Below are positions 3,948 through 40,947 of a DNA stretch of 52,856 nt, in pieces; within the stretch, counting starts at the first letter, position 1; each line of letters starts with the position of its first letter. The stretch lies in the NCBI RefSeq assembly GCF_013280595.1, contig NZ_JAAATY010000051.1:1-52856 (forward strand), read 5' to 3'. The DNA is from Kibdelosporangium persicum (GTDB taxonomy: Bacteria; Actinomycetota; Actinomycetes; Mycobacteriales; Pseudonocardiaceae). Made by a program: the position numbers and the translations under genes. The notes under the pieces are model-generated. The model was not told the origin of the DNA. It saw nothing but the letters and a program-made list of their open reading frames with translations, and made no database searches.

Positions 3948-3964
3948 CCTTGACTGGAGGACCC

Positions 3965-23730: not shown

Positions 23731-24477
23731 ATGGGGTCACCAGCACTTTCCGGACGCACCGCACTGGTCACCGGCGGGTCCCGCGGAATAGGCCGCGCGG
23801 TGGTCGAACGGCTCGCCGCCGACGGCGCGGCAGTGGCATTCAGCTACCGGCAGAGCGAGGACACCGCGATACTCCTCGCCAACGAACTGTCCACCGCGGG
23901 GACACCCGTGCGCGCCATCAGGGCCGATATGGTCTCGGTGGCGGATGTGCGCAGGATGTTCGCCGAGGCGGTCGAATTCCTCGGTGGTCTCGATATCGTC
24001 GTCAACAACGCAGGAGAAACTCTGGTGTCGGCCATCGGCGACACCACGGAAGAGGATTTCGACCGGGTGATGGCGGTGAACGTGAAGGCGACGTTCTTCG
24101 CCATGCAGGAGGCGTCCCGCAAGCTGCGCCGCGGCGGCCGGATCATCAACGTGTCCTCTGCCAACACGGTGCTGCACGCGCCGGGGATCGCCGTCTACGC
24201 CGCGTCGAAGGCCGCGATCGAGCAGTTCACCCTGGTGGCCGCGCGTGAACTGGGCATCCGCCAGATCACGGTGAACACCGTGTCGCCCGGTCCGGTCGAC
24301 ACGGACATGCTGCGCCAGTCACAGCCGCCGGAGGCGCTCGACATGGCGGCGGCGATGACTCCTTTGCGGCGACTGGGAAAACCGGACGACATCGCGGACG
24401 TGATCGCGTTCCTCGCCGGGCCGGGCGCGCGGTGGCTGACCGGCCAGAACCTGCGTGCCGCGGGTGGATTGGCGTGA
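23731..24477 (+). CDS. SDR family oxidoreductase 2
   Basis: 248-residue classical SDR with TGGSRGIG near residue 14, NNAGE, catalytic Ser in NVSSANT and Tyr-Lys in YAASK, ending in WLTGQNLRAAGGLA. It is more distant from the other two SDRs, with a different loop before the active site (LRRGGRIINVSS, as in glucose dehydrogenase/FabG-like subfamilies). The ATG at 23731 has no clear Shine-Dalgarno sequence and lies close to the divergent P450, so its mRNA could be leaderless or have a very short leader. It is followed after 7 bp by SDR 3. Confidence 0.87.
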   Translation: MGSPALSGRTALVTGGSRGIGRAVVERLAADGAAVAFSYRQSEDTAILLANELSTAGTPVRAIRADMVSVADVRRMFAEAVEFLGGLDIVVNNAGETLVSAIGDTTEEDFDRVMAVNVKATFFAMQEASRKLRRGGRIINVSSANTVLHAPGIAVYAASKAAIEQFTLVAARELGIRQITVNTVSPGPVDTDMLRQSQPPEALDMAAAMTPLRRLGKPDDIADVIAFLAGPGARWLTGQNLRAAGGLA

Positions 24478-24484
24478 TGCTCCG

Positions 24485-25240
24485 ATGACCGAGCAGCGAA
24501 CCGCGATCGTCACCGGCGCCGCGAGGGGAATCGGTGCGGCGACGGCCTTGAGGCTCGCCGCCCGCGGCGATCGGGTCGCCGTGATCGATGTGGACGGTGA
24601 GGGGTGCGAGCGCACGGCCGGCCGAATCACGACCGAGGGCGGTACAGGACTGGCCGTGCGAACGGATGTGGCGGTCCAGGAGGAGGTCCGCGCCGCGGTC
24701 GACGAGGTCGCCGACCGGCTCGGCCCGCCCGCGATCCTGGTCAACAACGCCGGAATCGTGCGCGACCACCTGCTCGAGGACATCTCCCGCGCGGACTGGG
24801 ACGCGGTGCTCGACGTCAACCTGCGCGGTGCTTTCCTGATGTGCCAAGCGGTCGCGCCCCACATGGTGCGGCAGGGATGGGGCCGGATCGTGAACCTGTC
24901 GAGCACATCGGCCAACGGCAGCAGGGAACAGGCCAACTACGCGTCCGCCAAAGCCGGTGTGCAGGGCCTGACCCGGACGCTGGCGATCGAACTGGGCCCT
25001 GCCGGGATCACTGTGAACGCGATCGCGCCGGGGTACATCATCAGCGACATGACCGCGGCGACCGCCGCCCGGCTCGGGGTGGACTTCGGTGAGTTCCAGA
25101 AGATCGTCGCGGCGCAGACGCCCGTGCGCCGCGTCGGCACACCGCACGACATCGCGCACACGGTGGCGTTCCTGACCAGCGAGGGGGCCGGGTTCGTCAC
25201 CGGTCAGGTCGTGTACGTCACCGGCGGTGTCGTGCGCTGA
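24485..25240 (+). CDS. SDR family oxidoreductase 3 (FabG-like paralog)
   Basis: 251-residue classical SDR: TGAARGIG, NNAG, Ser in NLSSTSANG and Tyr-Lys in YASAK, with the C-terminal GFVTGQVVYVTGG. The start at ATG 24485 follows SDR 2 by 7 bp, so the two are co-transcribed. It is a clear paralog of SDR 1 (shared GWGRIVN, AGVQGLTR, VAAQTP and RRVGTP segments at the same positions), suggesting duplication within the cluster. It is convergent with radical SAM 3, whose stop is 22 bp away. Two FabG-like enzymes would suit two ketoreductions or dehydrogenations on the same type of substrate (inference). Confidence 0.88.
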   Translation: MTEQRTAIVTGAARGIGAATALRLAARGDRVAVIDVDGEGCERTAGRITTEGGTGLAVRTDVAVQEEVRAAVDEVADRLGPPAILVNNAGIVRDHLLEDISRADWDAVLDVNLRGAFLMCQAVAPHMVRQGWGRIVNLSSTSANGSREQANYASAKAGVQGLTRTLAIELGPAGITVNAIAPGYIISDMTAATAARLGVDFGEFQKIVAAQTPVRRVGTPHDIAHTVAFLTSEGAGFVTGQVVYVTGGVVR

Positions 25241-27381: not shown

Positions 27382-28503
27382 GTGGGTGGTTCTGGGTCGG
27401 CGGCAGCGGAGGCGGAATTCGGCCCGGTCATGTCACTCCAGCGGATGGTGAGCATCCCGTCGCCCACCGGTGGTGAGGGTGAGCTGGCCGATTACCTCGT
27501 GGGTACCGCCCGTCGGCTCGGGCTCGCGGCGTGGCGCGACGAGGTGGGCAATTTCGTCGCGGAGAGAACTCCTGGCGGGACAACAAGATCGGCAGCGGGT
27601 GCGGGGAGTCCGACGGTCCTGTTGCTGGGACACATGGACACGGTGCCCGGCATGCTCCCGGTCCGGCTGCGTGACGGCGTGCTGCACGGACGCGGTGCCG
27701 TGGACGCCAAAGGCCCGCTCGCCGCGATGATCTGGGCCGCGGCCAAGCATTCCAACCGGACTGCTCGCGTCCGCGTCGTCGGCGCGGTCGGCGAGGAGGG
27801 CGATTCGCCCGGCGCCCGGCACCTGCTGGCCGAAGACCGCCCGGACGCGGTGGTCATCGGCGAGCCCAGCGGCGTGGGCAACGTTGTGCTGGGCTACAAG
27901 GGAGTGATCTGGTTCAAGCTGGAGATCACCAGGCCCGCAAGGCATTCCAGCAGGCCGGAGCCGAAGGCCGTTGAGGTGGCGGTGGAATTCGCCCACGACG
28001 TGCGTGCGTACGTGACGGCACACGCGGCCGGTGACCGGATGTTCGACCGGCCGATCGCGACGGTGACCGAGCTGACCGGCACCAGCACCGGCGCACGGGT
28101 GGTGCTGGGCTGCCGGACCCCGATCGGCTTTGACAGCAAGGCTTTCCGCACCTGGTTGCGGGATCGGGCCGGTGACGACGAGCTGACCGTGATCGAGGAG
28201 GTGCCCGCGGTCCTTTCGTCGCGCACCGACCCGATGGTCGCGGCGTTGTCCCAGGCCGTCGGCCGGTTCGTCGGCAGGCCGACGGCCAAGGTAAAGCTCG
28301 GCACGTCGGACATGAACGTGGTGGGTCCGGTGTGGTCGGTGCCGATCGCGGCGTACGGCCCCGGTGATTCCCGGCTCGATCACACCGACGAGGAACGCAT
28401 CGAGGTGGCCGAGTTCCTCACGTCGATCGACGTGCTCAGCCATGCGCTGGACCTGGTCTCGGAGACACTCGCCCGCAGGCACGCGGCGGTGCGGCCATGT
28501 TGA
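27382..28503 (+). CDS. LysK-like [LysW]-amino acid hydrolase (M20 peptidase)
   Basis: 373-residue M20 zinc peptidase that would release the finished amino acid from the LysW-type carrier. Motifs: GHMDTVPG (first metal ligand His and catalytic Asp), GRGAVDAKGPLAAM (bridging Asp), GAVGEEGDSPGA (general base Glu and ligand Glu), IGEPSG, and TSDMN near the C-terminus. The start is uncertain. GTG 27382 fits a GAGG site; the ATG at 27430 is closer to the first conserved residues (MVSIPSPTGGEGE), and upstream in-frame starts run into the intergenic region. First gene of a nine-gene operon, overlapping LysX by 7 bp. ArgE/DapE-like function is the alternative but the LysW, X, Y and Z neighbours favour LysK. 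Confidence 0.85.
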   Translation: MGGSGSAAAEAEFGPVMSLQRMVSIPSPTGGEGELADYLVGTARRLGLAAWRDEVGNFVAERTPGGTTRSAAGAGSPTVLLLGHMDTVPGMLPVRLRDGVLHGRGAVDAKGPLAAMIWAAAKHSNRTARVRVVGAVGEEGDSPGARHLLAEDRPDAVVIGEPSGVGNVVLGYKGVIWFKLEITRPARHSSRPEPKAVEVAVEFAHDVRAYVTAHAAGDRMFDRPIATVTELTGTSTGARVVLGCRTPIGFDSKAFRTWLRDRAGDDELTVIEEVPAVLSSRTDPMVAALSQAVGRFVGRPTAKVKLGTSDMNVVGPVWSVPIAAYGPGDSRLDHTDEERIEVAEFLTSIDVLSHALDLVSETLARRHAAVRPC

Positions 28504-29336
28504 GCGTGCTGTTGTCACGCCTCCGCGTCGAGGAGAAGGCGCTGCTCGAGGAACTCGACCGCAGGCACGTCGCCTACGAAGTGCTGGACACCCGCACCCT
28601 GGCTTTCCGGCTGGACGAGCTGGATCTGCCGTATCAGGGAGCGTTGTGCCGCGAGGTGTCGCACCACCGTGCCCACTACGCGGCTCGTCTGTTGGAACAC
28701 GCGGGTGTTCCCGTGGTCAACAGCGCGGCGGCGATCGCGCTGTGCGGCGACAAACTGCTGACCACGCTCGCACTCCGGCGGGCCGGGCTGCCGACGCCAC
28801 GCACGCTCGTCACGCTGACCGCCGAGGCCGCGATCGGCGAGCTGCCGTCCTTCGGCTATCCGGCTGTGGTGAAACCCGTGGTCGGCTCGTGGGGCCGGCT
28901 CGCCGCGCGGCTCTCGGACGACGAGGCGGCGCAAGGGGTGCTGGAACACCGCGCCGCCCTGCCTGGGGCACACCAGCACATCACATACATCCAGCAGTTC
29001 GTCGGCCGCCCGGGCAGGGACATCCGCGGGCTGGTCGCGGGCGAGGAGGTGCTCGGTGCGGTCTACCGCACGGCCACGCACTGGCGGACGAACACCGCGC
29101 GCGACGCGGTGACGTCGTTGTGCCCGGTGGACGCCGACCTGGAAAAGATCCTGTTGGACACCGCCGCCGCGGTCGGGCCAGGGGTTTACGGCATCGACGT
29201 GCTGGAGGACGCCGACGGGGCGTTGTACGTCAACGAGGTGAACCACACGCCCGAGTTCCACGGTGCGGCGGAGGTACTCGGCACCGGCCTGGCTGACCGG
29301 TACGTCAACTACGTCCTGGACCAGGTGAAGTCATGA
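28497..29336 (+). CDS. LysX-like ATP-grasp ligase loading the LysW carrier
   Basis: 279-residue ATP-grasp ligase (RimK/LysX family). It would join the alpha-amino group of glutamate or aminoadipate to the C-terminal Glu of the small carrier protein. Seen: ATP-grasp lid GYPAVVKPVVGSWGR, the acidic metal site near the end VNEVNHTPEF, and the LysX-like N-terminal domain (LDTRTLAFRLDE). It overlaps the LysK-like stop by 7 bp and the next aminotransferase by ATGA. In secondary-metabolic carrier pathways the amino acid is usually glutamate; here that is inferred from the transketolase and DegT genes, not from the ligase sequence. Confidence 0.9.
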   Translation: MLSVLLSRLRVEEKALLEELDRRHVAYEVLDTRTLAFRLDELDLPYQGALCREVSHHRAHYAARLLEHAGVPVVNSAAAIALCGDKLLTTLALRRAGLPTPRTLVTLTAEAAIGELPSFGYPAVVKPVVGSWGRLAARLSDDEAAQGVLEHRAALPGAHQHITYIQQFVGRPGRDIRGLVAGEEVLGAVYRTATHWRTNTARDAVTSLCPVDADLEKILLDTAAAVGPGVYGIDVLEDADGALYVNEVNHTPEFHGAAEVLGTGLADRYVNYVLDQVKS

Positions 29337-30592
29337 CCGGCAAGCTGGCGATGTTCGGCGGGACGCGGACGGTCACCCTCGACGAGGCGGACCGCAAGCT
29401 CCTCGCATGGCCGATCGTCACCGACGCCGAACGAACGGCGATCCTGGACGTGCTGGAGCACGGCGGTTTCACATCGGTCGGTGCCGGTGCGGCGGTCGTG
29501 CGGGAGCTGGAGGCGAGGTGGGCGGCGTACACCGGGACCCGCCACTGCGCGGCGGTGTCGAACGGGACGACAGCGATCGAGCTGGCCATCGCCGCGGCCG
29601 GGCTGGACCCGGGCGCGGAGATCGTGGTGCCCGCACTGTCCTTCATCGCCACCGCCACCGCGCCGCTGCGGCACCGGATCAAACCGGTGTTCGCGGACAT
29701 CGACCCGCGGAAGTTCACCCTCGCCCCGGCTGCCGCCGAGACCGCCATAACGCCGCGGACACAGGCCATCCTCGCGGTCCACCTGCACGGACTGCCCTGT
29801 GACATGACCGAGCTGCGTGCCCTTGCCGACAGGCACGGGCTGAGGCTCGTCGAGGACGCCGCGCAGGCCCACGGTGCCACGTACCGAGGGCGGCAGGCAG
29901 GTGCGCTCGGCGATATCGCGGCGTTCAGCCTGAACGTGTCCAAGAACCTGCCGACCTGTGGTGAGGGTGGGCTGGTCACCACCGACGACGCCGACATGCA
30001 CGACCAGGTCGTGCTCCGCCGCCAGTTCGGCGAACGCGTCCCCGACAAGGGCGAACGGCCCTACGTGTCGGAAGTGGTCGCGGGCAACGCGAAGCTCAGC
30101 TCGATGCAGGCCGCGTTCACCCGCTGCCAGCTCGACCGGCTGGCCGAGTGGGTCGCCGAACGCGAGCGCAACGTCAGCGGCCTGCTGGCCGGACTGGCGG
30201 ACCTGCCTGGACTGGTGCTGCCCTGGACTCCGCCGGACCGGACGCACGCCTGGCACATGCTGCGCTTCCGGTTCGACGTGGCCGCGATGGGCATGCCGGA
30301 TGTGGCCCCGGGCGCCGCCCGATCGCTCCTGCAGCGTGCCCTGCGTGCCGAAGGTGTTCCGTTGCAGCGCTACCAGTCGATGCCGTTGCCCGCCCAGCCC
30401 GCCCTGCGAGCGGGAAAGTACGACCCGCGAGAGCACCCGGTCACCGCCGCGGTCCTCGACGATTCGCTGACGCTGCAACGCTGGCACCTCAACCCGGCGA
30501 GTGAGCCGGTTCTGCGTCGATGCGTGGAGGCCTTCCACAAGGTATGGGCGAACCTCGATGTGCTCGCTCCCGTCGCCAGGCAGGCGTCATGA
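29333..30592 (+). CDS. DegT/DnrJ/EryC1-type PLP aminotransferase
   Basis: 419-residue fold-type I aminotransferase: SNGTTAIELA (phosphate site), EDAAQAHGA (Asp for the pyridine nitrogen) and the Schiff-base Lys204 in FSLNVSKNLP. In vazabitide-type pathways a homologous enzyme aminates the C6 ketone made by the transketolase while the chain is still on the carrier protein (established knowledge of that pathway). Position between LysX and the transketolase pair, with ATGA overlaps on both sides, supports the same step here. Sugar aminotransferases of this family are the main alternative, but no deoxysugar genes are present. Confidence 0.9.
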   Translation: MTGKLAMFGGTRTVTLDEADRKLLAWPIVTDAERTAILDVLEHGGFTSVGAGAAVVRELEARWAAYTGTRHCAAVSNGTTAIELAIAAAGLDPGAEIVVPALSFIATATAPLRHRIKPVFADIDPRKFTLAPAAAETAITPRTQAILAVHLHGLPCDMTELRALADRHGLRLVEDAAQAHGATYRGRQAGALGDIAAFSLNVSKNLPTCGEGGLVTTDDADMHDQVVLRRQFGERVPDKGERPYVSEVVAGNAKLSSMQAAFTRCQLDRLAEWVAERERNVSGLLAGLADLPGLVLPWTPPDRTHAWHMLRFRFDVAAMGMPDVAPGAARSLLQRALRAEGVPLQRYQSMPLPAQPALRAGKYDPREHPVTAAVLDDSLTLQRWHLNPASEPVLRRCVEAFHKVWANLDVLAPVARQAS

Positions 30593-31401
30593 ACGACGTC
30601 AAAGCCCGTGCGTACCGGGCACGGGAGACGATCCTGGCGATCGGCGCGACCGAACACGGCACGCACGTCGGTGGCAGTCTGTCCGCAGTGGACATTCTCA
30701 CCGTGCTGTACTCGGACATCCTGCGCGTGCGCCCGGACCAACCGGACTGGCCCGACCGGGACTGGTTCGTGCTGAGCAAAGGCCACGCCAGTGCTGCGTT
30801 GTACGCGGTGTTGTCCGAACACGGCTACTTTCCGCCCGAGGAGTGCGAGGCCTACGGCAGGCACGGTGGCAGGCTGGCCGGACATCCGTTGCGGAGACTC
30901 CCCGGCGTCGAATTCCCCACGGGGTCCCTGGGGCATGGCTTGTCACTCGCCGCGGGTGTCGCGCTCGGCGCTCGGCGCACCGGCCGGCCGTGCCGTGCGT
31001 TCGTCCTGCTCGGTGACGGTGAACTACAGGAGGGATCGAACTGGGAGGCGATCATGTCCGCGCCGCGGTTCGGCCTGGACAACCTGGTCGCCGTGGTCGA
31101 TCGCAACGGCTGGCAGATCACCGGCCGTACCGAGGACTGCGTGCCGCTCGAGCCGCTCGCGCAACGTTGGCGCAGCTTCGGCTGGGAATGCGTGGAAGTC
31201 GACGGTCATGATCTCGGCGCGCTGCGCCAGGCGTTCGCCACCGTGCCACGGAGCGAGGGCCGGCCGACCGTGGTCATCGCCAGAACGACAAAAGGGCGTG
31301 GTGTCCCGATCTTCGAGGACCGCCGCAAGAGCCATTACGTCAAGCTGACCGCGCGGCTCTACGAACGCGCGATCGCCGGACTGCGCCGGAGCCGGCCGTG
31401 A
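30589..31401 (+). CDS. Transketolase N-terminal subunit (ThDP-binding)
   Basis: 270-residue first half of a split transketolase. The ThDP motif starts at LLGDGELQEGSNWEA and ends in the Asn of VDRNGWQ; earlier residues SKGHASAALYAVL and GSLGHGLSLAAG match substrate/ThDP contacts. It pairs with the C-terminal subunit encoded next. Such split enzymes transfer a two-carbon ketol unit; in the carrier-protein pathways the acceptor is the carrier-bound glutamate semialdehyde. ATG 30589 overlaps the aminotransferase stop as ATGA. A role in central pentose metabolism is unlikely given the operon. Confidence 0.9.
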   Translation: MNDVKARAYRARETILAIGATEHGTHVGGSLSAVDILTVLYSDILRVRPDQPDWPDRDWFVLSKGHASAALYAVLSEHGYFPPEECEAYGRHGGRLAGHPLRRLPGVEFPTGSLGHGLSLAAGVALGARRTGRPCRAFVLLGDGELQEGSNWEAIMSAPRFGLDNLVAVVDRNGWQITGRTEDCVPLEPLAQRWRSFGWECVEVDGHDLGALRQAFATVPRSEGRPTVVIARTTKGRGVPIFEDRRKSHYVKLTARLYERAIAGLRRSRP

Positions 31402-32366
31402 CGTGGGCCGAGCGATACGCGGGCAGCACACGTGAGGTGTATCGCCGCACGCTGCTCGAACTGGCGTGCGCGGACTCGCGGATCTACTGCGTGGACTCCG
31501 ACATGGGCGGTTTCGAGGACGACTTCGGCGAGCAGCTGCCGCGGCAGTACGCGAACGTGGGCATCGCCGAGGCGAACATGATCGGGATGTCGGCCGGGCT
31601 GGCCGCGGCCGGGCTGATCCCGTTCGCCAACACCATGAGCGCCTTCGCGACCGCGCGCGCCGCCGAGCAACTGAGGCTGGACGTGGCGGGCAACGACCTG
31701 CCAGTCCGGATCGTGGCCAGCCACGGCGGACTCTCGGCCGGGCACTACGGGCCGTCCCACCACTCGCTGGCGGATCTGGCCGTGCTGCGGACGATGCCGC
31801 ACCTGACCGTGCTCGTGCCGGCCGACACCGTCGAGACCGAGTACGCGATCCGGGCCGCGGCTGTCGCGCCCGGCCCGGTCTTCGTCCGGCTGGGCCGTTC
31901 CGAGACGCCATTGGTGTACCAGAAGCCGTACGAGTTCACTGTGGGCAAGGCGGTCGAGCTGGCAGCCGGCAACGCTGTCACGATCATCGCCACCGGCCCG
32001 CTCCCGGTGAACATGTCCCTCACCGCGAGTGCCCTCCTCGAACCGGAGGGCATCGCGGCACGCGTGCTGAACATGCACACGATCCAGCCCATCGACCACG
32101 CCGCCGTCGTTCGCGCGGCGCGCCAGACCGCCGGGATCGTGACGGTCGAGGACCACGTGGTGTCCGGCGGGCTCGGGGCGGCGGTCTGCGAGATCGTCTG
32201 TGCCGAACACCCGTGCCGGGTCACCAGGATGGGCTCGGCCACGGCGTACGTCGACGAAGTCGGCAGCGAACGCGAACTGCTGGTGGCGGCCGGGGTCTCG
32301 CCGGAGCGGATCGCCGCGGCCGCGGCAGAGCTCGCCAACCCGCGATGGAGAAGGGAGACGGCCTGA
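31398..32366 (+). CDS. Transketolase C-terminal subunit
   Basis: 322-residue second half of the split transketolase with the pyrimidine-binding domain (catalytic Glu in VGIAEANMIGMSAGLA) and the C-terminal transketolase domain. ASHGGLSAGHYGPSHHSLAD is the conserved active-site histidine stretch. The GTG start at 31398 overlaps the partner stop as GTGA, giving coupled translation and probably balanced subunits. It is followed directly by the LysW-type carrier gene (TGATG). The pair closely parallels the two-gene transketolase of azabicyclic amino acid pathways. Confidence 0.9.
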   Translation: MTWAERYAGSTREVYRRTLLELACADSRIYCVDSDMGGFEDDFGEQLPRQYANVGIAEANMIGMSAGLAAAGLIPFANTMSAFATARAAEQLRLDVAGNDLPVRIVASHGGLSAGHYGPSHHSLADLAVLRTMPHLTVLVPADTVETEYAIRAAAVAPGPVFVRLGRSETPLVYQKPYEFTVGKAVELAAGNAVTIIATGPLPVNMSLTASALLEPEGIAARVLNMHTIQPIDHAAVVRAARQTAGIVTVEDHVVSGGLGAAVCEIVCAEHPCRVTRMGSATAYVDEVGSERELLVAAGVSPERIAAAAAELANPRWRRETA

Positions 32367-32533
32367 TGGCGTTGAGTTGCCCCGAATGCGAGAGCGAGGT
32401 CTCGCCGCCTGAACCCGTTCGTCAGCACGAAGTCCTGGAGTGCCCCGACTGCCGGGCCGAACTGGAGGTGATCGCGGTCGAGCCGGTGGTGCTCGCGCTC
32501 GCACCGGAGATCGAGGAGGACTGGGGCGAGTAG
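32366..32533 (+). CDS. LysW-type amino-group carrier protein (AmCP)
   Basis: 55-residue acidic carrier protein. The N-terminal half is a zinc ribbon with Cys5-x2-Cys8 and Cys26-x2-Cys29; the C-terminus is EDWGE, the signature of LysW proteins, whose last Glu receives the substrate amino group by its gamma-carboxylate. The start ATG is within TGATG after the transketolase stop, and its TAG overlaps the GTG of the LysY-like gene. It is the scaffold on which LysX, Z, Y, transketolase and aminotransferase act. The short length makes it easy to miss, but motif and context are decisive. Primary lysine/arginine LysW is the alternative; the transketolase pair points to secondary metabolism. Confidence 0.93.
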   Translation: MALSCPECESEVSPPEPVRQHEVLECPDCRAELEVIAVEPVVLALAPEIEEDWGE

Positions 32534-33558
32534 TGACAGGCATCCGGGCCGGAATCCTCGGCGCTTCCGGGTACATCGGCGGGGAACTGCTCCGGGTGCT
32601 GCTCGGGCACCCACGGGTCGCCGCCGTCGTACCGGTGTCCCGGCGGTTGGCGGGCCGCAGGGTGGACGGCGTGCACCCGAACCTGCGTGGCACCACCGAG
32701 CTGGTCTTCCGGTCCATGGACGACGTGTCGCCCTGCGACGTGTTGTTCCTGGCCACGCCGCACACGCAGACCATGGACATGGTGCCGGGATTGCGATCCG
32801 TCGCGCCCTGCCTGATCGATCTCAGCGCGGACTTCCGGCTGCGGGATCCAGTTGTGTACGAACGGTACTACGGCACCGTGCACACGAACCCCAGCCTGTT
32901 AGCGGATTTCGTACCCGGGCTGCCTGAGCTCTATCGCGAACAACTCGAGGAGGCGGACCTCATCAGCGTGCCTGGGTGCATGGCGACCGCGGCGATCCTC
33001 GCCCTGTACCCGCTTTCGGCGGACGGGCTGCTCGACGGAGCCGTGTGGGTGGACGGCCGGATCGGGTCCAGTGGCGCGGGTTCGGCTGCGACCTCGACGA
33101 ACTTGCACGCGGAGCGCAGCGGCGCGATGCGGGTGTTCGCTCCGGCCGGGCACCGGCATGAGGCGGAGGTCAGACAGGCGACCGGCCTGGAGATCACCAT
33201 GAGTGCGACGGGAATGCCCGAGGTGCGCGGCGCTCAGGTGGTGTGCCGTGGACGACTGTCCACGCCGCTGCGGGAACCGGAGTTGCGCCGTATCCATCGC
33301 GAACACTACGCGGACGAGCCGTTCGTCCGTATCGTGGCTCAGCGCCGTGGGTTGTACCGGCTGCCGGAACCCAAGGTCATGCACGGCTCGAACTTCTGCG
33401 ACGTCGGATTCGCCCTGGGGGACGACCGGGATGTCGTCCTGGTGGCCGCACTGGACAACCTGGTGAAAGGAGCGGCGGGAAACGCCGTGCAGTGCCTGAA
33501 CATCCGGATGGGCTGGCCGGAGCGGCTGGGCCTGGCGTTCCCGGGGCTGCACCCGTGA
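32533..33558 (+). CDS. LysY-like carrier-bound acyl-phosphate reductase
   Basis: 341-residue homolog of N-acetyl-gamma-glutamyl-phosphate reductase (ArgC/LysY). It has the NAD(P) motif GASGYIGGE at residues 9-17, the catalytic Cys in SVPGCMATAA, and conserved DLSADFRLRD and NLVKGAAGNAVQC near the C-terminus. It would reduce the phosphorylated carrier-bound glutamate to the semialdehyde that the transketolase uses. GTG 32533 overlaps the last base of the LysW stop. Its order (Y before Z) and overlap with the kinase (TGATG) keep all carrier genes in one transcript. An ArgC role is formally possible but no other arginine genes are present. Confidence 0.92.
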   Translation: MTGIRAGILGASGYIGGELLRVLLGHPRVAAVVPVSRRLAGRRVDGVHPNLRGTTELVFRSMDDVSPCDVLFLATPHTQTMDMVPGLRSVAPCLIDLSADFRLRDPVVYERYYGTVHTNPSLLADFVPGLPELYREQLEEADLISVPGCMATAAILALYPLSADGLLDGAVWVDGRIGSSGAGSAATSTNLHAERSGAMRVFAPAGHRHEAEVRQATGLEITMSATGMPEVRGAQVVCRGRLSTPLREPELRRIHREHYADEPFVRIVAQRRGLYRLPEPKVMHGSNFCDVGFALGDDRDVVLVAALDNLVKGAAGNAVQCLNIRMGWPERLGLAFPGLHP

Positions 33559-34379
33559 TGGTGCCCATGACTGTGGTGGTGAAAATCGGCGGCCGCGGCG
33601 GCATCGATGTGCCGTCGCTCTGCGCGGACATCGCCGGGCTGACCGCACGAGGGACGCACGTCGTGCTCGTGCACGGCGGATCGGGTGCAATGGAGGAGCT
33701 CGCTGAGCGCCTCGGTGTCGGGCTACGCGACCTGGTCGCACCCGACGGCGTCGTCACCCGCCGGACCGACGAAGCCACATTGGACACGTTGACGCTGGCG
33801 CTGGCCGGGCGCGTGAAACCCGCACTGCTGACCGAGCTGGCTCGGCATGGCGTGCGCGCGATCGGGCTGACCGGCATCGACGGCGGCCTGCTGCGTGCGC
33901 GACGCAGGAAGGCTATCCGGTCGGTGGAAGACGGCCGGACCGTCGTGGTCCGAGATGACCACAGTGGACGTATCGAGTCGGTGGACACCAGTCTGCTGCG
34001 TGGCCTGCTCGGCCTCGGGCTCGCGCCGGTGGTGTCACCGCCCGCGCTGACCGAGGACGGGAATCCGGTCAACGTCAACGCCGACCGGGTGGCCGGTGCG
34101 GTCGCGGTCGCCATGGGCGCGGACCGCCTGGTGTTCCTCACCGATGTACCCGGCGTGCTGGCGGACGGGGCCGTTGTCCGTGAACTCCGGTTGCCGGGCA
34201 CGGGGATCACTGGCGGAATGGGCATCAAGCTCGTCGCCGCGGGACAGGCACTGGCCGGTGGCGTATCACGGGTGTACATCGCCGGTGGCGGTGGGAAAAA
34301 GCCGATCTCGTTGGCCCTCGCCGGAAAGACCGGCACCAGGGTCCTGACCGAGGAGGAGGCAGGATGCGCTGTGGAGTGA
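33558..34379 (+). CDS. LysZ-like carrier-bound glutamate kinase
   Basis: 273-residue amino acid kinase family member (ArgB/LysZ type) with KIGGRGG near the N-terminus, VHGGSG for substrate/phosphate binding, NVNADRVAGAVAVAMGADRLVFLTD in two parts typical of NAG kinases, and GGMGIKL. It would phosphorylate the side-chain carboxylate of the carrier-bound glutamate. Start ATG 33558 lies in TGATG after the LysY-like stop. Its 3' end overlaps the LLM oxidoreductase by 16 bp. Regulatory N-terminal extension of arginine-sensitive ArgB is absent, which agrees with LysZ-like use. Confidence 0.92.
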   Translation: MVPMTVVVKIGGRGGIDVPSLCADIAGLTARGTHVVLVHGGSGAMEELAERLGVGLRDLVAPDGVVTRRTDEATLDTLTLALAGRVKPALLTELARHGVRAIGLTGIDGGLLRARRRKAIRSVEDGRTVVVRDDHSGRIESVDTSLLRGLLGLGLAPVVSPPALTEDGNPVNVNADRVAGAVAVAMGADRLVFLTDVPGVLADGAVVRELRLPGTGITGGMGIKLVAAGQALAGGVSRVYIAGGGGKKPISLALAGKTGTRVLTEEEAGCAVE

Positions 34380-35185
34380 GCGTTCCGACCTTCGGTGAGT
34401 TCGCCGACGTGCATGTGCTCACCGAGCTGGCGGTCGAGGCCGAACGAGCGGGGTGGGACGGATTCTTCCTCTGGGACCACGTGGCGTGGCCGTGGGTCGA
34501 CGAACTGGTCGACCCGTGGATCGCGATGACCGCCGTGGCCCTGAGCACCGAGCGAATCCGGTTCGGGCCGGTCGTCACCCCGTTGTCGCGTCGCAGGCCC
34601 GCCAAGGTGGCCAGGGAGACAGTCACGCTGGACCGGTTGTCGGGCGGCCGGTTCACGCTCGGTGTGGGCTCCGGCGCGTTCGCGAAGGAGTTCGACGACC
34701 TGGGCGAGCCGGGAACCGACGCGCGTACCCGCGCCGCGCTGCTCGACGAGTCACTGCGGGTCCTGACCGCGCTGTGGTCGGGGGAGAAGGTCAGCTTCAC
34801 CGGGACGCACCACCAGATCCGGGACACCCGGTTCGTGCCCACACCGGTGCAGCAGCCCAGGATCCCGGTCTGGGTCGGCGGCCAGTGGGCGTTGCCCGGA
34901 CCGCTGGCCAGGGCCCTGAACTGGGACGGGTACGTGCCGCTCAAGGCCGAACCGGTGCCCTTCACGCCCGCCGAGGTCGCCGAGATCGCCGAGCGGCTGG
35001 ACATCACCAGCCGCACGGGTTACGACCTGGTCATCTGCGGTGCGGGCGGCGACGTCGCGGGTTACGTCGAAGCGGGCGCCACCTGGTGGGTCGACACCGT
35101 GCCTGCGTGGGACCCGTCGTTGCCCGCCATCCGCGAGCGTGTCGTCGCGGGCCCGCCTATCGATCGTCCAGGGTCACCAGGCTGA
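34364..35185 (+). CDS. LLM class flavin-dependent oxidoreductase
   Basis: 273-residue luciferase-like TIM-barrel enzyme: WDGFFLWDHVAWPW (cofactor region), GPVVTPLSRRRPAK, and GRFTLGVGSGAFAKEF, the phosphate-binding stretch of the F420/FMN LLM family. Either F420 or FMN could be used; sequence alone does not decide. It is translated from within the end of the kinase gene, so it belongs to the carrier-protein operon and probably oxidises or reduces the released amino acid or the peptide (inference). Its 3' end overlaps the convergent radical SAM 4 gene by 29 bp, so no terminator separates the two operons. Confidence 0.87.
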   Translation: MRCGVSVPTFGEFADVHVLTELAVEAERAGWDGFFLWDHVAWPWVDELVDPWIAMTAVALSTERIRFGPVVTPLSRRRPAKVARETVTLDRLSGGRFTLGVGSGAFAKEFDDLGEPGTDARTRAALLDESLRVLTALWSGEKVSFTGTHHQIRDTRFVPTPVQQPRIPVWVGGQWALPGPLARALNWDGYVPLKAEPVPFTPAEVAEIAERLDITSRTGYDLVICGAGGDVAGYVEAGATWWVDTVPAWDPSLPAIRERVVAGPPIDRPGSPG

Positions 35186-36989
35186 GGATCTGCTTTTCCT
35201 CACGGAAGAGCAGGTGTTGCTCGTCGAACTGGGCCAGCCGCGCCAGCACGTCGTCGGCGGGCAGGTTGAGTTCGGCGGGCAGCCGCTCAGGCTGTACGGG
35301 CGAGGACAGCCTGCGCAGCAACACCCGTGCGGTCTCGTCCAGCGTGACCCGCCGTTCGTCGCCCCACCGGGTGTCAAGAACCTCCTCGCCCCGCAAGGAC
35401 AGCGTAGGCCTGCGCCGGTCCCATGCGTCGCGCCACCGGGTGATCGACGCGTTCAGCACCGGCAGCCACTTCGCCGCGTTGAGCGTGTAGGGCGCGAGCT
35501 TCTGGTCGGTGAAGAAGTACGCGAGGTGTTCGATCGCGGCTTCGTCGAACGGGTACACCAGCTCGTAGAACGGCAAGGGCCGCAAGTCGAGCCCGTATTC
35601 GCCGCGTTCGGTGTGGTACGGGCTGTACCGGTCGAACCGCACCATGTGCGCACCGGTCGGCGGCGGCAGGTGGGTCAGCAGCGGGATGTCCCGCGCGTAC
35701 TTCTCGTACACGCTCTCGTGTTCCTTCGGAAAGCCCACCAGCAGGTTCCAGTCCGGGCTGATCGAGTGCCGCAGGCAGCTCTTGAGGAACTGCAAGTTCA
35801 GGAACGCGGTCGTGCCTTTGCGCATCAGTTTGAGCGTGTCGGTGGACAGCGCCTCGATGCCCGGCTGGACACGCCGGACGTTGGCGCGGGCCATCGCCGC
35901 CATGTCCTTGTCCGCGACCGGCACCTTGATCTCGTAGAACACCGTGACGCCGTCGGGCGCGTCCAGGTGGGCGAACACATCGCGCGGGTAGGACTTCGGC
36001 ATGATGTTGTCCGTGCAGGCGAAGCTCTTGCACCACGGCGTGTACTCGAACAGCCGTCGGAACTGGCGCAGTGCCGTTTCGGCGGACATCGAGCGGTAGC
36101 CCATGCCGAGTCCGTTGAGGCCGCAGAACGTGCAGTGCGAGCGCTGGCCCCACCAGCATCCGCGGGAGGTCTCGAAGAACAGCGTCGGCTCGGTCCGTGC
36201 CGCCTGCTCGCCGAGTTGCTCCCGCCGGGCGGTGAACGCGGTGACGAAGCTGCTGAAGTCGGGTTCGAAGAAGTCCTCGATGTCCCGGTCCCGGCCGACC
36301 GCTTGGCCGTAACGGGCCTGCGTGTAGTTGCGCGCCGTCACCACACCGGGCAGGGTGTGCGCCTTCTCCGGCGTGTCGTCGACTAGGCACCGCAGGAACT
36401 CGGGGAACGTGTGCAGCGCCGGGCCGGAGAACGTGTAGTCCACAGTGGGCACATGCGCGGCGATGACTGTCCCCATGGGAGCTTCGCAGTTGGCACCGCC
36501 TATCACGGTGACCGCGCCGGGGTTGCGGTCCTTGACGACTCGTGCGATCGCGATGCTCGGCACGTTCTGCGCGAACATCGAGGTGAACCCGACCACGTCG
36601 GCGCCGGCCAGGTCGTAGCGGTCGACCAGCTCACCGCAGTAGTCAGCGAGGCCTGCCCGCAGTTCGGTGATCCGCACGCGGAAGTCCCGCCACCTGCGCC
36701 CGCGGTAGTAGCGGCGGAAGTACTCGTCGGCGTTGTCAGCCGACTCCGGGAACGCCACCTGCCGGAACAGCCACTCACCCACACCGGACAGCAGGTGCTC
36801 CAGATCGCCCGCGATGGCCTCGTACGTCTCGACACCGCAGTACTCGACGAAGTCGATGTTCAGGTTGTGCACCTCGGCTCGCGCCGCGCCCGCGAACTCC
36901 CGGCTGACCAGTGCCGAGAGCTGGCTCAGCGCGAACGAGGGCCGGTTCCAGTCGGCGAACGGCATGTTGACGAACGCGACCCTGAGCAT
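35157..36989 (-). CDS. Radical SAM enzyme 4, RiPP-type C-methyltransferase (Cx7Cx2C)
   Basis: 610-residue cobalamin-binding radical SAM enzyme unlike the other three. The N-terminal domain (VGFTSMFAQNVPS, GGANCEAPMG) is B12-binding-like. The cluster motif is RGCWWGQRSHCTFCGLNG with Cys278, Cys286 and Cys289, i.e. Cx7Cx2C, the form seen in the RiPP maturation radical SAM C-methyltransferase family (TIGR03975-like, established family knowledge). A C-terminal domain of about 180 residues follows. ATG 36989 has GGAGG seven bases before it; the gene follows the C-A-T NRPS with a 4-bp gap. No RiPP precursor is nearby in this operon, so it probably methylates an NRPS substrate here (inference). The lasso precursor is 33 kb away. 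Confidence 0.87.
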   Translation of the reverse strand: MLRVAFVNMPFADWNRPSFALSQLSALVSREFAGAARAEVHNLNIDFVEYCGVETYEAIAGDLEHLLSGVGEWLFRQVAFPESADNADEYFRRYYRGRRWRDFRVRITELRAGLADYCGELVDRYDLAGADVVGFTSMFAQNVPSIAIARVVKDRNPGAVTVIGGANCEAPMGTVIAAHVPTVDYTFSGPALHTFPEFLRCLVDDTPEKAHTLPGVVTARNYTQARYGQAVGRDRDIEDFFEPDFSSFVTAFTARREQLGEQAARTEPTLFFETSRGCWWGQRSHCTFCGLNGLGMGYRSMSAETALRQFRRLFEYTPWCKSFACTDNIMPKSYPRDVFAHLDAPDGVTVFYEIKVPVADKDMAAMARANVRRVQPGIEALSTDTLKLMRKGTTAFLNLQFLKSCLRHSISPDWNLLVGFPKEHESVYEKYARDIPLLTHLPPPTGAHMVRFDRYSPYHTERGEYGLDLRPLPFYELVYPFDEAAIEHLAYFFTDQKLAPYTLNAAKWLPVLNASITRWRDAWDRRRPTLSLRGEEVLDTRWGDERRVTLDETARVLLRRLSSPVQPERLPAELNLPADDVLARLAQFDEQHLLFREEKQILSLVTLDDR

Positions 36990-36993
36990 GGGG

Positions 36994-39900
36994 TCAGCCT
37001 CCTTCAGCGAATTCGGCACACGCGCGCACAGTGGCGAGGCGGTACAGGTCGCGGACCGAGATGGCGATTCCCCGCTCAGTCAGCTCCGCGACCACCCGCA
37101 GCGCGATCAGGGAGTCACCGCCGATCTCGAAGAAGTCGTCGTCCAGACCGATGTCGTCGATCTCGAGGATCTCCCGCCACACCGACGCGATCCTCTCCTG
37201 CACCGGGGTGAACGCTGTCTCCGGGGCGGAGTGGTGTACCGGCGGCGGCTGCGGCAGCCTGGCGCGGTCGACCTTGCCGCTCGGGGTGAGCGGGAGTTCG
37301 CCGAGCACCACGACCGTCGCCGGGACCATGTAGGCCGGAAGGCGTTCCCTCAGGTGGTCGAGCAGTTCTTCGCGCCGCGGCGAGTGGGTGCCTGCGGGGA
37401 CCACGTAGCCGACCAGCTCCGGCTCAGCTGCGTGGTGCAAGACGACAACCGCCGACCGGACGGTTTCGTGCGCCCGCAGAACCGTCTCGATCTCGCCGGG
37501 CTCGATCCGGAAGCCACGCAGTTTCACCTGGTCGTCACCGCGACCGAGGAACTCCAGTGCGCCGTCCGGCGCCAGCCTGCGCACGATGTCCCCGGTCCGG
37601 TACAGCCGGGCACCAGGCCGGAACGGGCTCGCCACGAACCTTTCCGCGGTCAGCGCGGGGTTGCCGAGGTACCCTCTGGCCACTCCCGCTCCGCCGATGT
37701 ACAGCTCTCCTTGCGCGCCAAGGGGGACCGGGCGCAGCCGGCGGTCGAGGACGTACACCTGGACACCGTCGAGCGGGTGGCCGATGGGCACCCGGCCGAA
37801 CGGGCTCCGCCGCAACGCCGGGCCCGCGGTCGCGGCCACCGTGCATTCCGTTGGGCCGTAACAGTTCAACGTGACCAGATCGGCGTCGCGCGTCCGCTTG
37901 ACGCGGTCGGCGTCGAGCTGGTCACCGCCGAGGTTCAGGTGTCGTGTGCGCGACAGCGCGGAGCGGTCGTGGTCCGACAGCGCGGCGAACAGGCCGGGAG
38001 TGAGCAACAGTGCGGACGCCGCTGAGGCCAGCCGGTGGTAGTCGGCCGGATCCAGCCGATCATGCCTTTCCGGCAACACGATTTGCGCGCCCGCGCACAA
38101 CGTGCTCCACAACTCGTAGACAGACGCGTCGAATGCCGGTGACGAGTGCAGACCCACTGTGTCGTGTGGACTGGGCGACATGGGTTGGTTGGGAGAGACG
38201 AAGTTCGTCACGCTCGCGTGCGTGATCATCACACCTTTGGGGCGGCCGGTCGAGCCGGACGTGTAGGTGACGTAAGCCAGGTTGTCCGGCCGCATCGGGA
38301 CATCCGGCCGGTCTTGCGGCCAGTCGTGGTACGGCGAGACCTCACGCAACACCACCGCGGGCTGTGCGTCGTCGATGATCTGGCGGATTCGCTCGGCTGG
38401 GAACAACTGGTCGATCGGCAGGTAAGCGCCGCCCGCCTTCAACACGCCCACAAGCGTGACGATGGTCTCGATACGGCGCGGCAGGACCACGCCGACGACA
38501 CGGTCCGGCCCGATTCCCTTGTCCCGCAACATCCACGCGACCTGGTTCGCCTTCGCGTCCAGTTCGCCGTAGGTCAACAGGTCGGCGCCCTGCCGCACGG
38601 CGATCGCGTCCGGTGTGCGGTCGGCGTGCCGCTCGATCAGTCTGTGCACCAGGTCATCGGGAGCGGCGGGCCGTGATTCCCGGTCCGGCTCGGCCATCAT
38701 CCGCAGGTCGGCGATTCGGGCGCCCGGCCGGACGGCGTCGGCCAGTAGGTTCACCAGGTTCCCGGCGAGCCGTTCGATCGTGGCCGCGTCGAACACCTCC
38801 GAGCGGTATTCGACGAAACCCGTGATGCCGGGGCCGGTGTCGTGGAACAGCACGTTGAGGTCGAGCGCGGCGGTGCGCCCGTCCGGCAGGTCGAGCGCGG
38901 CCGCCGGGACGCCGGGGAAGTCCACATCGGACTCGGGAATGGTCTGCACGGAGAACATGGCCTGGAAGACCGGGTGCGCGCTGAGGTCTCGGCGCGGGGC
39001 CACCGCACGGATCAGCCGGTCGAACGGGAGTTCCTGGTGAGCCATGGCCTCCAGGGTCGCCCTCCGGGCCTGCCCGACCAGGTCGTCCACGGTCTCGTCG
39101 TCGCGTACCCGCAGTCGCAGGGGTAGGGGGTTGACCAGGTGGCCGACCAGATCGGCCGCTTCCGGCCACTGCCGGTTGGCCAACGGCACGCCGACGATCA
39201 CGTCATCGTCACCGCTGTAGCGGCTGAGCAGGCAGGCGAACACCGACAGCAGCGCCACGAACGTGGTCGTCCGGTTCCGGGAGGCCAAGTCCCGTACGCC
39301 TTGGACGAGTCCGGGTGGCAGGGTGAAGTGGGTGCAGGCGCCGGAGTAGTCCCGGACCGGTGGCCGTGGCCGGTCCAGTGGCAAGGCGGGTTCGGGCAAC
39401 GGTCCGGCGAGCTGCCGGCGCCAGTACGCCAGCAGCCGGTCGAGTTCCTTGCCTTGCAGAAAATCCTGTTGGCGGGCCGCGAATTCGGTGTAGGACAGGG
39501 GCAACGGATCGAACGCCGGCCCGCCCGATCGCGCGGCCTGGTAGGCGGAGCCGATGTCCCGCCACAGCACCGACATCCCCCAGCCGTCGACCACGATGTG
39601 GTGCAAGGTCAACAGGAACCAGTGCTCACGGTCGTCGAGCGTGAGCAGCAACACTCGCCACAGCGGGGCCCGCGCCAGGTCGAACGGCTTGTTCTGGGCC
39701 TCGGCCAGCAGGTGCCGGGCCTCGGTGGGGCGACCACGCAGCTCGGCGTGGCACCAGTCCACGTCGATCCGGTCGTGCACGACTTGCACCGGCTGACCGT
39801 TGACGAGCTCGAACGAGGCCCGCAGCGGCTCGTGCCGGTCGGTGACCGCGGCAAGTGCCGCGCGGAGGGCGCTGACGTCCAGGTCGCCGAGCAGCCGCAG

Positions 39901-40005
39901 GCCACTGGCCACTGTGTACGTCGCGCCCGTCGAGTAGAGGTTCTCCTCGGCGAACAGCCGTTGCTGCGCTGGTGAAAGCCCGGCACGCCGGACACCGGCG
40001 ATCAT
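36994..40005 (-). CDS. Nonribosomal peptide synthetase, C-A-T
   Basis: 1003-residue single module started at ATG 40005, which overlaps the thioesterase stop as ATGA. C domain residues 8-440 with HHIVVDG at 135-141; A domain about 455-920 with [20 protein letters not shown] and SGKVDR; T domain with Ser965 in IGGDSL. By-eye specificity residues (about DAYLNGCVAK) do not match a code I know, so the substrate is open; an unusual carrier-pathway amino acid is a reasonable candidate. No epimerase or thioesterase domain follows. It is probably a separate elongation or final module from the big NRPS. Confidence 0.93.
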   Translation of the reverse strand: MIAGVRRAGLSPAQQRLFAEENLYSTGATYTVASGLRLLGDLDVSALRAALAAVTDRHEPLRASFELVNGQPVQVVHDRIDVDWCHAELRGRPTEARHLLAEAQNKPFDLARAPLWRVLLLTLDDREHWFLLTLHHIVVDGWGMSVLWRDIGSAYQAARSGGPAFDPLPLSYTEFAARQQDFLQGKELDRLLAYWRRQLAGPLPEPALPLDRPRPPVRDYSGACTHFTLPPGLVQGVRDLASRNRTTTFVALLSVFACLLSRYSGDDDVIVGVPLANRQWPEAADLVGHLVNPLPLRLRVRDDETVDDLVGQARRATLEAMAHQELPFDRLIRAVAPRRDLSAHPVFQAMFSVQTIPESDVDFPGVPAAALDLPDGRTAALDLNVLFHDTGPGITGFVEYRSEVFDAATIERLAGNLVNLLADAVRPGARIADLRMMAEPDRESRPAAPDDLVHRLIERHADRTPDAIAVRQGADLLTYGELDAKANQVAWMLRDKGIGPDRVVGVVLPRRIETIVTLVGVLKAGGAYLPIDQLFPAERIRQIIDDAQPAVVLREVSPYHDWPQDRPDVPMRPDNLAYVTYTSGSTGRPKGVMITHASVTNFVSPNQPMSPSPHDTVGLHSSPAFDASVYELWSTLCAGAQIVLPERHDRLDPADYHRLASAASALLLTPGLFAALSDHDRSALSRTRHLNLGGDQLDADRVKRTRDADLVTLNCYGPTECTVAATAGPALRRSPFGRVPIGHPLDGVQVYVLDRRLRPVPLGAQGELYIGGAGVARGYLGNPALTAERFVASPFRPGARLYRTGDIVRRLAPDGALEFLGRGDDQVKLRGFRIEPGEIETVLRAHETVRSAVVVLHHAAEPELVGYVVPAGTHSPRREELLDHLRERLPAYMVPATVVVLGELPLTPSGKVDRARLPQPPPVHHSAPETAFTPVQERIASVWREILEIDDIGLDDDFFEIGGDSLIALRVVAELTERGIAISVRDLYRLATVRACAEFAEGG

Positions 40006-40775
40006 CGGACGCTCACCTCTCCCGAGTGCAGGCCCAGTCGCCGGCACACCACCTCGGCGATGGCATCCGCCTGGGTGGCGAGGTAGAAGTGCTCGCCGGG
40101 AAGGCGGTGGACCTCCAGGTCCGCGGTCGTGGCCGTGGCCCAGTTCGCGAGATTCCGCCCGGCCAGCAACGGATCGTCGGTTCCGCCGAACACGGTGATC
40201 GGGGCTCGGACCCGAATGCCGTCCAGCGGCGCGTTGCGCACCACCCGCAGGTCGGAACGCAGGATGCCAAGGAACATCGCGCGCAGTTCGGCGTCACCGA
40301 GCATCTCGCGCGCGGAGGCGTCCAGCAACGCGACGGAATCCAACAACGCCTCGTCGGTGGCGGCGTAGGTCACCGCGAAGGGCGATCCCATCGAGATCCT
40401 GTTGCCGGGACCCGGGTGTCCGGACACGAACAGGTGCCGCACCGGGACGTCGTGCCGGTCGAGCGACTGGCAGACCCTGGTCGCCAGGATGGCGCCCATG
40501 CTGTGCCCGAACAGCGCGATGTCCGGCAGTTCGGCGTTCATGACCGCTTCGGTGATCTGGCCGACCAGTTCGTCGAGATCGGTGACCAGCGGTTCGAGGA
40601 TGCGGTTTTCCCTGCCGGGCAACTGAACCGGCAGCACGTCGACGTAGTCGTTGAGCGCGGCGAGCCAGGACCGGTACTTCGACGCCGTGCCACCCGCGTG
40701 GGGCAGGCAGACGAGCTGTACCGGGTGCCGACGCCTGGCCGGGTTACCGAAGATCCATTTGCCACGCATGGCCAT
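40002..40775 (-). CDS. Type II thioesterase
   Basis: 257-residue alpha/beta hydrolase of the NRPS editing type: PHAGGTASKYRSW near residue 25, nucleophile Ser92 in GHSMGA, Asp in FGGTDDPL, His in LPGEHFYL. Such enzymes clear misprimed carrier proteins. Because neither NRPS has its own thioesterase, it could also release the product (inference). ATG 40775 follows GGGGGA; ATG 40769 is a minor alternative. First gene of the leftward operon with the C-A-T NRPS and radical SAM 4, divergent from the exporter. Confidence 0.92.
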   Translation of the reverse strand: MAMRGKWIFGNPARRRHPVQLVCLPHAGGTASKYRSWLAALNDYVDVLPVQLPGRENRILEPLVTDLDELVGQITEAVMNAELPDIALFGHSMGAILATRVCQSLDRHDVPVRHLFVSGHPGPGNRISMGSPFAVTYAATDEALLDSVALLDASAREMLGDAELRAMFLGILRSDLRVVRNAPLDGIRVRAPITVFGGTDDPLLAGRNLANWATATTADLEVHRLPGEHFYLATQADAIAEVVCRRLGLHSGEVSVR

Positions 40776-40947
40776 CTGCCATCCCCCAAGAGTGTCATCG
40801 GGACCGTGCTCCGGCTGAGACCTCCTCTGGCGCTGGCGCCCTTCTGTGCGATTATGGCGGGGAGGTACGCAAGGTAGCAACAAACCGGGCAGTGGCCAGG
40901 TTAATGGCCGCCCGGCGGCGAAATGTGACCCATTGGGGGGACTGTGC
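40776..40947. other. Divergent promoter region, thioesterase versus exporter
   Basis: 172 bp with no gene. The exporter start is preceded by GGGGGGAC. No unambiguous promoter or operator was seen. Confidence 0.5.

Follow-up and report, generated by a model that had tools for sequence, protein, structure and literature searches.

A nine-gene amino-group carrier protein operon within a radical SAM-rich nonribosomal peptide synthetase cluster of Kibdelosporangium persicum

Introduction

Few products built through amino-group carrier proteins (AmCPs) are known, and clusters that join such a carrier to a nonribosomal peptide synthetase (NRPS) are already a known kind. Passages of PMC9303977 describe an AmCP route to 2,6-diamino-5,7-dihydroxyheptanoate (DADH), a building block of two NRPS products, vazabitide A and s56-p1, and parts of PMC9570651 describe transketolase and aminotransferase steps in azinomycin synthesis, taken with either N-acetylglutamate or a carrier. 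The literature passages available on such products name no B12-dependent radical S-adenosylmethionine (rSAM) enzyme in their pathways. Here we analyze a stretch of Kibdelosporangium persicum DNA, hereafter the window, that makes up a complete contig (G000:C51, 52,856 bp); the genome measures 10.35 Mb. A nine-gene AmCP operon at positions 27382-35185 on the + strand is embedded within an NRPS cluster, where it is surrounded by an A-T-C-A-T-C synthetase and a C-A-T synthetase (A, adenylation; T, thiolation; C, condensation), a free peptidyl carrier protein (PCP), a thioesterase (TE), two acyl-CoA dehydrogenase-like (ACAD) genes, three short-chain dehydrogenases (SDRs), a cytochrome P450, a class III aminotransferase (AT3) and four B12 rSAM genes (RS1-RS4).

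We consider it likely that this cluster directs a short NRPS peptide that contains a DADH-type residue made on the AmCP together with valine, and that is C-methylated by B12 rSAM enzymes. The rSAM-rich form of the cluster was found only in this genome among those searched. Related clusters make up a four-member family, of which we recognized no description in the open-licence PMC literature and for which no product was matched. The cluster is therefore a promising starting point in the search for a new natural product.

Results

The nine operon genes are all open, and adjacent genes overlap by 1-16 bp (Table 1). An initial annotation of this DNA had listed them as LysK-, LysX-, LysW-, LysY- and LysZ-like genes with a split transketolase (TK-N and TK-C), a DegT-family aminotransferase and a luciferase-like (LLM) oxidoreductase, and all are present with family matches far beyond chance, as is the 55-residue carrier ending in EDWGE. 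The carrier has four zinc-ribbon cysteines, matches the solved LysW proteins 5k2m_E and 3wwl_A, and is the single LysW match in a PF21344 search of the whole genome. In passages of PMC7794033, LysW is named solely as a false RiPP (ribosomally made peptide) precursor. The best NCBIfam model for LysZ is that of [LysW]-aminoadipate kinase (216.2 bits, just below the cut-off of 223), and LysZ clears the argB model TIGR00761 (178 versus 151.3 bits). Judged by its genes, the operon has the makeup of AmCP-mediated secondary metabolism, namely an EDWGE carrier, LysX, LysY, LysZ and LysK homologs, and a split transketolase with an aminotransferase.

A LysX scan of a genome-contig collection described as covering 84,980 species returned 31 loci, 22 of which are actinobacterial with 54-66% identity (L029-L050). 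In three of them, from Streptomyces sp. AC550_RSS872, Streptomyces sp. SPB162 and S. rishiriensis NBRC 13407, the LysW gene directly follows the transketolase as it does in the window. These kin clusters share the AmCP block LysK-X-DegT-TKN-TKC-W-Y-Z, whose eight genes are 55-79% identical to those of the window, and all three further hold ACAD2-ACAD1, a valine module, an SDR, a TE, an A-T-C-A-T-C NRPS, a PCP and RS4. The whole common core is 43-79% identical between the window and the kin and is arranged in blocks. On gene content, the cluster family has four or more members, and since all three closest clusters carry both RS4 and the ACAD genes, these belong to its core and are not the unusual additions for which they had been taken. 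Conversely, the LLM gene, initially counted with the AmCP set, falls outside the conserved set because it is unmatched in these clusters. RS1-RS3, AT3 and the P450 are likewise unmatched in the compared stretches of the three kin, each of which has one SDR against three in the window. A genome-wide search with RS3 at E<=0.001 covered five genomes and matched in two, neither of them kin (0 of 3 kin genomes), so the proposal that three B12 rSAM enzymes are a new addition stands so far.

The LysX phylogeny agrees with this grouping. The tree has 47 rows, with 46 of the 49 loci offered giving a usable segment of at least 200 aa; L024 and L025, in which the gene is split over two stretches, and L055 were left out. 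It includes no primary LysX of Thermus or archaea, and its sole non-actinobacterial row, from NC10, sits on a long branch. The window groups with 24 other actinobacterial rows (93/99), some of which are copies of one locus, with NC10 outside; this placement and the single PF21344 match in the genome bear out the earlier assignment of the operon to secondary metabolism. Within this group the window joins the three kin (92/91), sister to a 21-row clade (98/95). TK-C and LysW are separated by 2.5-3.7 kb in all 15 sister-side loci that have both genes, and the proteins encoded in these intervals are unmatched in the window at E<=1e-3. Seven such proteins were scanned (from L034, L041 and L044), six of which fall into GNAT, BtrH_N, glyoxalase-like and glycosyltransferase families and one into no family, and a 2-oxoglutarate (2OG) oxygenase and a second M20 peptidase occur elsewhere in the few sister loci scanned. 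Because the window LysX lies outside the 21-row clade with its wide TK-C/LysW gap, equating the operon with the vazabitide, azinomycin and ficellomycin set, as was done at first, goes too far. Of 394 genomes of the class, 18 (own included) hold a LysX relative at E<=1e-30, not every one of them a proven cluster gene. Within the genus, two of the eight genomes examined, the own one and G005, carry LysX at 50% identity or more. As a separate observation, contig G414:C96 carries both a LysX relative (50%, L105) and a TIGR03975-like rSAM gene (33%, L127), with about 45 kb between them.

RS4 belongs by score to TIGR03975, a family named for the maturation of ribosomally synthesized and post-translationally modified peptides (RiPPs). 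Its B12-binding Pfam match is weak (23.1 bits, under the cut-off of 32.1), and no PDB chain matched it at E<=0.001. RS4 overlaps its neighbors on both sides, its start running into the end of NRPS2 and its end into that of the AmCP operon. Matches at E<=1e-60 were found in 21 of the 394 class genomes, own included, with only G230 exceeding 50% identity besides the window. The G230 relative (L136, 12249-14123, G230:C444; 51%) is located upstream of a large NRPS with two DLTKVGEV-type A codes, which we take to be Asn-like, and a P450 relative accompanies it. No AmCP genes were matched in the 40 kb compared at this locus, and the 18 genomes with a LysX match do not include G230. In a 23-row RS4 tree, the window, its three kin and G230 form a clade with 100/100 support, and all five members are found in NRPS clusters. 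RS4 therefore looks NRPS-associated, which suggests that one branch of this "RiPP" rSAM family belongs to NRPS clusters. For genome mining, the consequence is that a TIGR03975-type gene can be mistaken for a RiPP marker.

The other three rSAM enzymes resemble CysS. RS1 and RS2 are 83% identical, RS3 is 67-68% identical to both, and identity to ccCysS is 40-41% (RS1 40%, RS3 41%). Among solved structures, RS3 comes closest to CysS itself (PDB 9n1b, 548 bits over residues 8-633), whereas the cut-off of the KedN5 family NF033712 (700 bits) is missed by all three (289-305 bits). The iron-sulfur cysteines (CX3CX2C), Trp75 and Trp206 are kept in RS1-RS3, and position 607 is acidic (D, D and E, respectively). 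According to passages of PMC12846815, Trp75 lies under the cobalt of CysS and residue 607 contacts the pantetheine arm. RS3 relatives at E<=1e-40 occur in 14 of the 394 class genomes, own included; five of these genomes have 51-53% identity over 574-633 residues and one has 41%, with none beyond the own genome above 53%. The five nearest homologs adjoin an A-T gene together with ACAD- and TE-like genes that are 28-31% identical to those of the window. At these loci (L090, 11999-17448, and L092, L094, L095 and L097) the A-T, CysS-like rSAM, ACAD-like and TE-like genes stand in a row, and the A code is DALFLGLVVK in all five, which looks aliphatic. Such a row looks like a stand-alone module that would methylate and desaturate an aliphatic amino acid. 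The presence of the nearest RS3 homologs beside these genes supports action on a carrier-bound amino acid.

A-domain codes were read through motif anchors on the classic PheA positions. The A1 code, DVQESGGIGK, has its counterpart in the AC550 kin as DVFESGGIGK, and the alignment, inspected by eye, has the same pocket motifs in the remaining two kin. A glutamate at position 278 is usual for diamino acids. Since A1 has Glu278 and its code is conserved in the kin, we propose loading of DADH by this domain, and would guess that it takes the carrier-made residue as starter. A2 had been read as valine, and we concur, as DAFWLGGTFK and the DAFWVGGTFK of the kin are presumably both valine-type, giving a Val-type code in all four clusters. 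In the kin, however, this domain sits in a separate C-A-T module, whereas in the window it lies within NRPS1, which is the best window match to the kin module (43-47%). An A domain has probably been exchanged, because window A2 shares 56-57% identity with the A domain of the kin C-A-T module, against 49-52% with the kin domain that occupies the same position. The third code, DAYLNGCVAK in the window, reads DALWGGCTNK or DPLWGGCTNK in the kin. Catalytic motifs are kept throughout: all three C domains (C1-C3) have HHxxxDG, each of the four carriers has its serine, and the TE reads GHSMG.

ACAD2 has lost about 140 internal residues in frame relative to the 352-353-aa kin proteins. The motif RRQFG is present in ACAD2 of the window and kin and absent from ACAD1 in the alignment, and on this basis the two proteins may form one heteromeric enzyme. 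The predicted structure of ACAD2 alone (mean pLDDT 52) is too poor to use. For AT3, the best NCBIfam model is daptide_amino (289.7 bits, under the cut-off of 450), and no homologs at E<=1e-90 were found in 298 other relatives (own genome only, 1 of 299). The three paralogous B12 rSAM genes, the TIGR03975 gene, the ACAD pair and the class III aminotransferase reported initially are thus all present.

The cluster looks intact, and its boundaries were drawn roughly at 7.7-42 kb, which reaches neither end of the contig. Pfam scanning covered 40 open reading frames (ORFs) of the window, not every ORF being included. A GC3 filter was passed by 20 of the 25 listed genes; ACAD1, TK-N, LysW, LysZ and RS1 fail it or sit in longer ORFs.

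Table 1. Genes of the cluster in the window, in order of position. Percentages are amino acid identities to the three Streptomyces kin clusters.
Feature	Coordinates	Strand	Evidence
RS1, CysS-like B12 rSAM enzyme, 633 aa	7699..9597	-	Pfam B12-binding and Radical_SAM, scanned on longer ORF 7699-10281
RS2, CysS-like B12 rSAM enzyme, 635 aa	9597..11501	-	Pfam; CX3CX2C and Trp75 kept; unmatched in 3 kin clusters
AT3, class III aminotransferase, 424 aa	11522..12793	-	PF00202 1e-74; unmatched in kin clusters
Stand-alone PCP, 94 aa	12801..13082	-	PF00550 2e-14; 52-58%
NRPS1, A1-T-C-A2-T-C, 2282 aa	13082..19927	-	Pfam; A1 DVQESGGIGK, A2 DAFWLGGTFK; 46-47% to kin NRPS over residues 30-2267 or 17-2267
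ACAD1, acyl-CoA dehydrogenase-like, 367 aa, full length	19985..21085	+	N, M and C domains; 51-52%
ACAD2, shortened acyl-CoA dehydrogenase-like partner, 211 aa	21090..21722	+	C-terminal part 61-63% to kin ACAD2
SDR1, SDR3 paralog	21738..22475	+	PF13561 1e-64; 59-61% to single kin SDR
Cytochrome P450	22489..23670	-	PF00067 6e-24; unmatched in kin clusters
SDR2	23731..24474	+	PF13561 4e-59; 38-39% to single kin SDR
SDR3, core short-chain dehydrogenase	24455..25237	+	PF13561 2e-63; 62-64%
RS3, CysS-like B12 rSAM enzyme, 642 aa	25266..27191	-	CysS homology
LysK-like hydrolase, would release carrier-bound amino acid	27382..28503	+	TIGR01902 283.1 bits (cut-off 163.1); 55-58%
LysX-like ligase, would load carrier	28497..29336	+	TIGR02144 275.9 bits (cut-off 275.6); 64-66%; tree
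DegT-family aminotransferase	29333..30592	+	PF01041 9e-89; 65-66%
TK-N, transketolase N-terminal half	30589..31401	+	PF00456 1e-44; 77-79%
TK-C, transketolase C-terminal half	31398..32366	+	PF02779 2e-35, also PF02780; 65-67%
LysW-like AmCP, 55 aa, ends EIEEDWGE	32366..32533	+	PF21344 47.1 bits (cut-off 27)
LysY/ArgC-like semialdehyde dehydrogenase	32533..33558	+	GTG start; TIGR01850 336.2 bits (cut-off 233.6); 72%
LysZ/ArgB-like kinase	GTG 33555 or ATG 33558..34379	+	PF00696 5e-34; 59-60%
LLM oxidoreductase, operon end	34364..35185	+	PF00296 4e-43; unmatched in 3 kin clusters
RS4, TIGR03975-family B12 rSAM enzyme, CX7CX2C	35160..37019	-	503 bits (cut-off 281.85); 51-53%
NRPS2, C-A3-T, 1017 aa	36997..40047	-	Pfam; A3 DAYLNGCVAK
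Stand-alone TE	40005..40949	-	PF00975 6e-38; 46-47%
MFS transporter, likely export	40846..42150	+	PF07690 2e-22; no match in kin stretches at E<=1e-5

Other genes flank the cluster. Lasso peptide genes at 1031-3489 (- strand) encode a B2 protein with a PqqD domain and a macrolactam cyclase of the albusnodin/ikarugamycin family; no lasso precursor was evident by eye in the six frames of 3381-3960. A protein with a SMODS-associated NUDIX domain, a family that we take to be linked to CBASS-type defence, is encoded at 40-1023 (-), and a Schlafen/AlbA_2 domain protein at 50648-51994 (+), close to the right contig end. A ROK-family regulator at 3920-5197 (+), just left of the cluster, is a possible cluster regulator.

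Discussion

From the genes, their families, order and kinship, and the cofactor motifs that are kept, we infer a set of substrates and reactions, each of which is offered as a proposal. LysX would attach glutamate to the LysW-like carrier, and LysZ and LysY would convert the side chain of the bound glutamate to a semialdehyde. The split transketolase would then add a two-carbon unit, followed by transamination by the DegT enzyme, and LysK would free a DADH-type amino acid. This residue would be activated by A1 as the starter, with NRPS1 adding valine, and NRPS2, the free PCP and the TE would contribute one or more additional residues and set free a short peptide. Desaturation of a carrier-bound residue is the probable task of the ACAD pair. 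RS4 would make a modification common to the whole cluster family, most likely C-methylation, and in this strain RS1-RS3, AT3, the P450, the two extra SDRs and the LLM enzyme should take C-methylation and oxidation of the peptide further, perhaps in successive rounds.

A more specific version of this proposal, which we advance tentatively and with considerable doubt, is that RS1-RS3 act as a methylation relay on a pantetheine-bound residue and build a branched chain (isopropyl, sec- or tert-alkyl) on the AmCP-made amino acid or on its valine neighbor, with RS4 representing the NRPS branch of a family filed under RiPPs. If this is true, no earlier natural product known to us would combine AmCP logic with carbon-chain building by B12 radical enzymes. 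The four strains can be compared, since three have RS4 only and one has RS4 plus three CysS-like enzymes, and the role of each rSAM enzyme is therefore directly testable.

Several points weigh against our favored proposal of a C-methylated peptide with DADH-type and valine residues. LysZ scores slightly below the cut-off of its best model and LysX barely above its own, and we know of no code that corresponds to that of A1 or of A3. ACAD2, which has lost its middle part, may be dead. The substrate residues of CysS are all changed in RS1-RS3 (W188 to Y, Y and F; W271 to G, G and S; S273 to N; F485 to L), and W271A is described in passages of PMC12846815 as having much lower activity, so methylation by RS1-RS3 is not certain. 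There is also no histidine at the columns of H371 (Y) and H617 (V, L and L), which passages of the same source propose to hold SAM for cobalamin methylation. Moreover, the acid at position 607 may mean little, because the three aligned homologs from outside have Y, H and H there instead. With the cysteines, Trp75 and Trp206 kept and W188, W271, S273 and F485 changed, the main cofactor contacts of RS1-RS3 look intact, and their substrate would seem to differ from that of CysS.

The product might instead be an aziridine or 1-azabicyclo[3.1.0]hexane peptide of the vazabitide, azinomycin or ficellomycin type, in which the rSAM enzymes are mere decoration. The same AmCP core and valine module fit such a product, and the ACAD pair could make a dehydro-amino acid. 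The AmCP regions of both G035, a member of the sister LysX clade, and G096 hold relatives of the pair (40-42%). However, we regard this explanation as unlikely. The window LysX is sister to that clade, the presumed home of the aziridine clusters, and not inside it, the sister-loci proteins between TK-C and LysW have no counterpart in the window, GNAT, BtrH_N, 2OG oxygenase and second M20 peptidase proteins were found in the few sister loci scanned, and no sulfotransferase, as a sign of aziridine formation through sulfate elimination, is present in the 40 window ORFs scanned, which do not cover every ORF. The product is thus probably not an aziridine of the vazabitide type. One further marker was considered and dropped. 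Passages of PMC9040887 link AlkZ-type glycosylases to azinomycin and ficellomycin/vazabitide-like clusters. The AlkZ family PF06224 was found in all 13 genomes searched, and a match shares a contig with an AmCP LysX only in G101, where the contig is most of the genome and the nearest match is more than 1 Mb away. As a self-resistance marker, AlkZ scores 0 of 4 in the window family and 0 of 9 in the sister clade and so does not tell the two apart; short contigs make the test weaker still.

An assignment of RS4, or of all four rSAM enzymes, to a ribosomal peptide, made either by a RiPP/NRPS hybrid or by two overlapping clusters, would account for the TIGR03975 score of RS4 and for the lasso genes near the contig end. 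This is quite improbable, given that all five members of the RS4 clade reside in NRPS clusters, that the lasso genes are unmatched in the three kin stretches, and that RS4 overlaps the ends of both NRPS2 and the AmCP operon, so that a precursor gene could not fit immediately next to it, although no precursor-finding program was run. It is slightly more improbable still that the cluster is decaying and makes no product. The gap of ACAD2 and the 83% identity of the neighbors RS1 and RS2 could be signs of breakage and duplication, but the loss in ACAD2 is in frame and spares the RRQFG stretch and the C-terminal part, most listed genes pass the GC3 filter, all nine operon genes are open, and the rSAM cysteines, carrier serines and condensation motifs are retained. 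Primary lysine or arginine synthesis would explain the homology to LysK, X, W, Y and Z, yet the split transketolase and DegT genes inside the operon, the NRPS genes around it, and the rarity of a LysX this similar among the genus genomes examined make this explanation very nearly negligible.

Comparison with known systems

As a member of TIGR03975 (rSAM_ocin_1, a RiPP maturation radical SAM C-methyltransferase), RS4 is typical in score and in its CX7CX2C motif, but differs in its NRPS context and separate clade, and no RiPP precursor was seen beside it, no program for finding one having been applied. RS1-RS3 are like CysS, the iterative B12 rSAM methylase of cystobactamid synthesis, in near full-length homology, CX3CX2C, Trp75, Trp206 and the acid at 607. 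In contrast, Trp188, Trp271, Ser273, Phe485, His371 and His617 of CysS are replaced in them, the window has three copies, and p-aminobenzoate genes were absent among the window ORFs scanned. The three Streptomyces kin have a full-length ACAD2, whereas that of the window is shortened. We know of no B12 rSAM enzymes in the vazabitide A or s56-p1 clusters. The likeness of the window to these two systems, as passages of PMC9303977 present them, is in the carrier-bound DADH route that feeds an NRPS.

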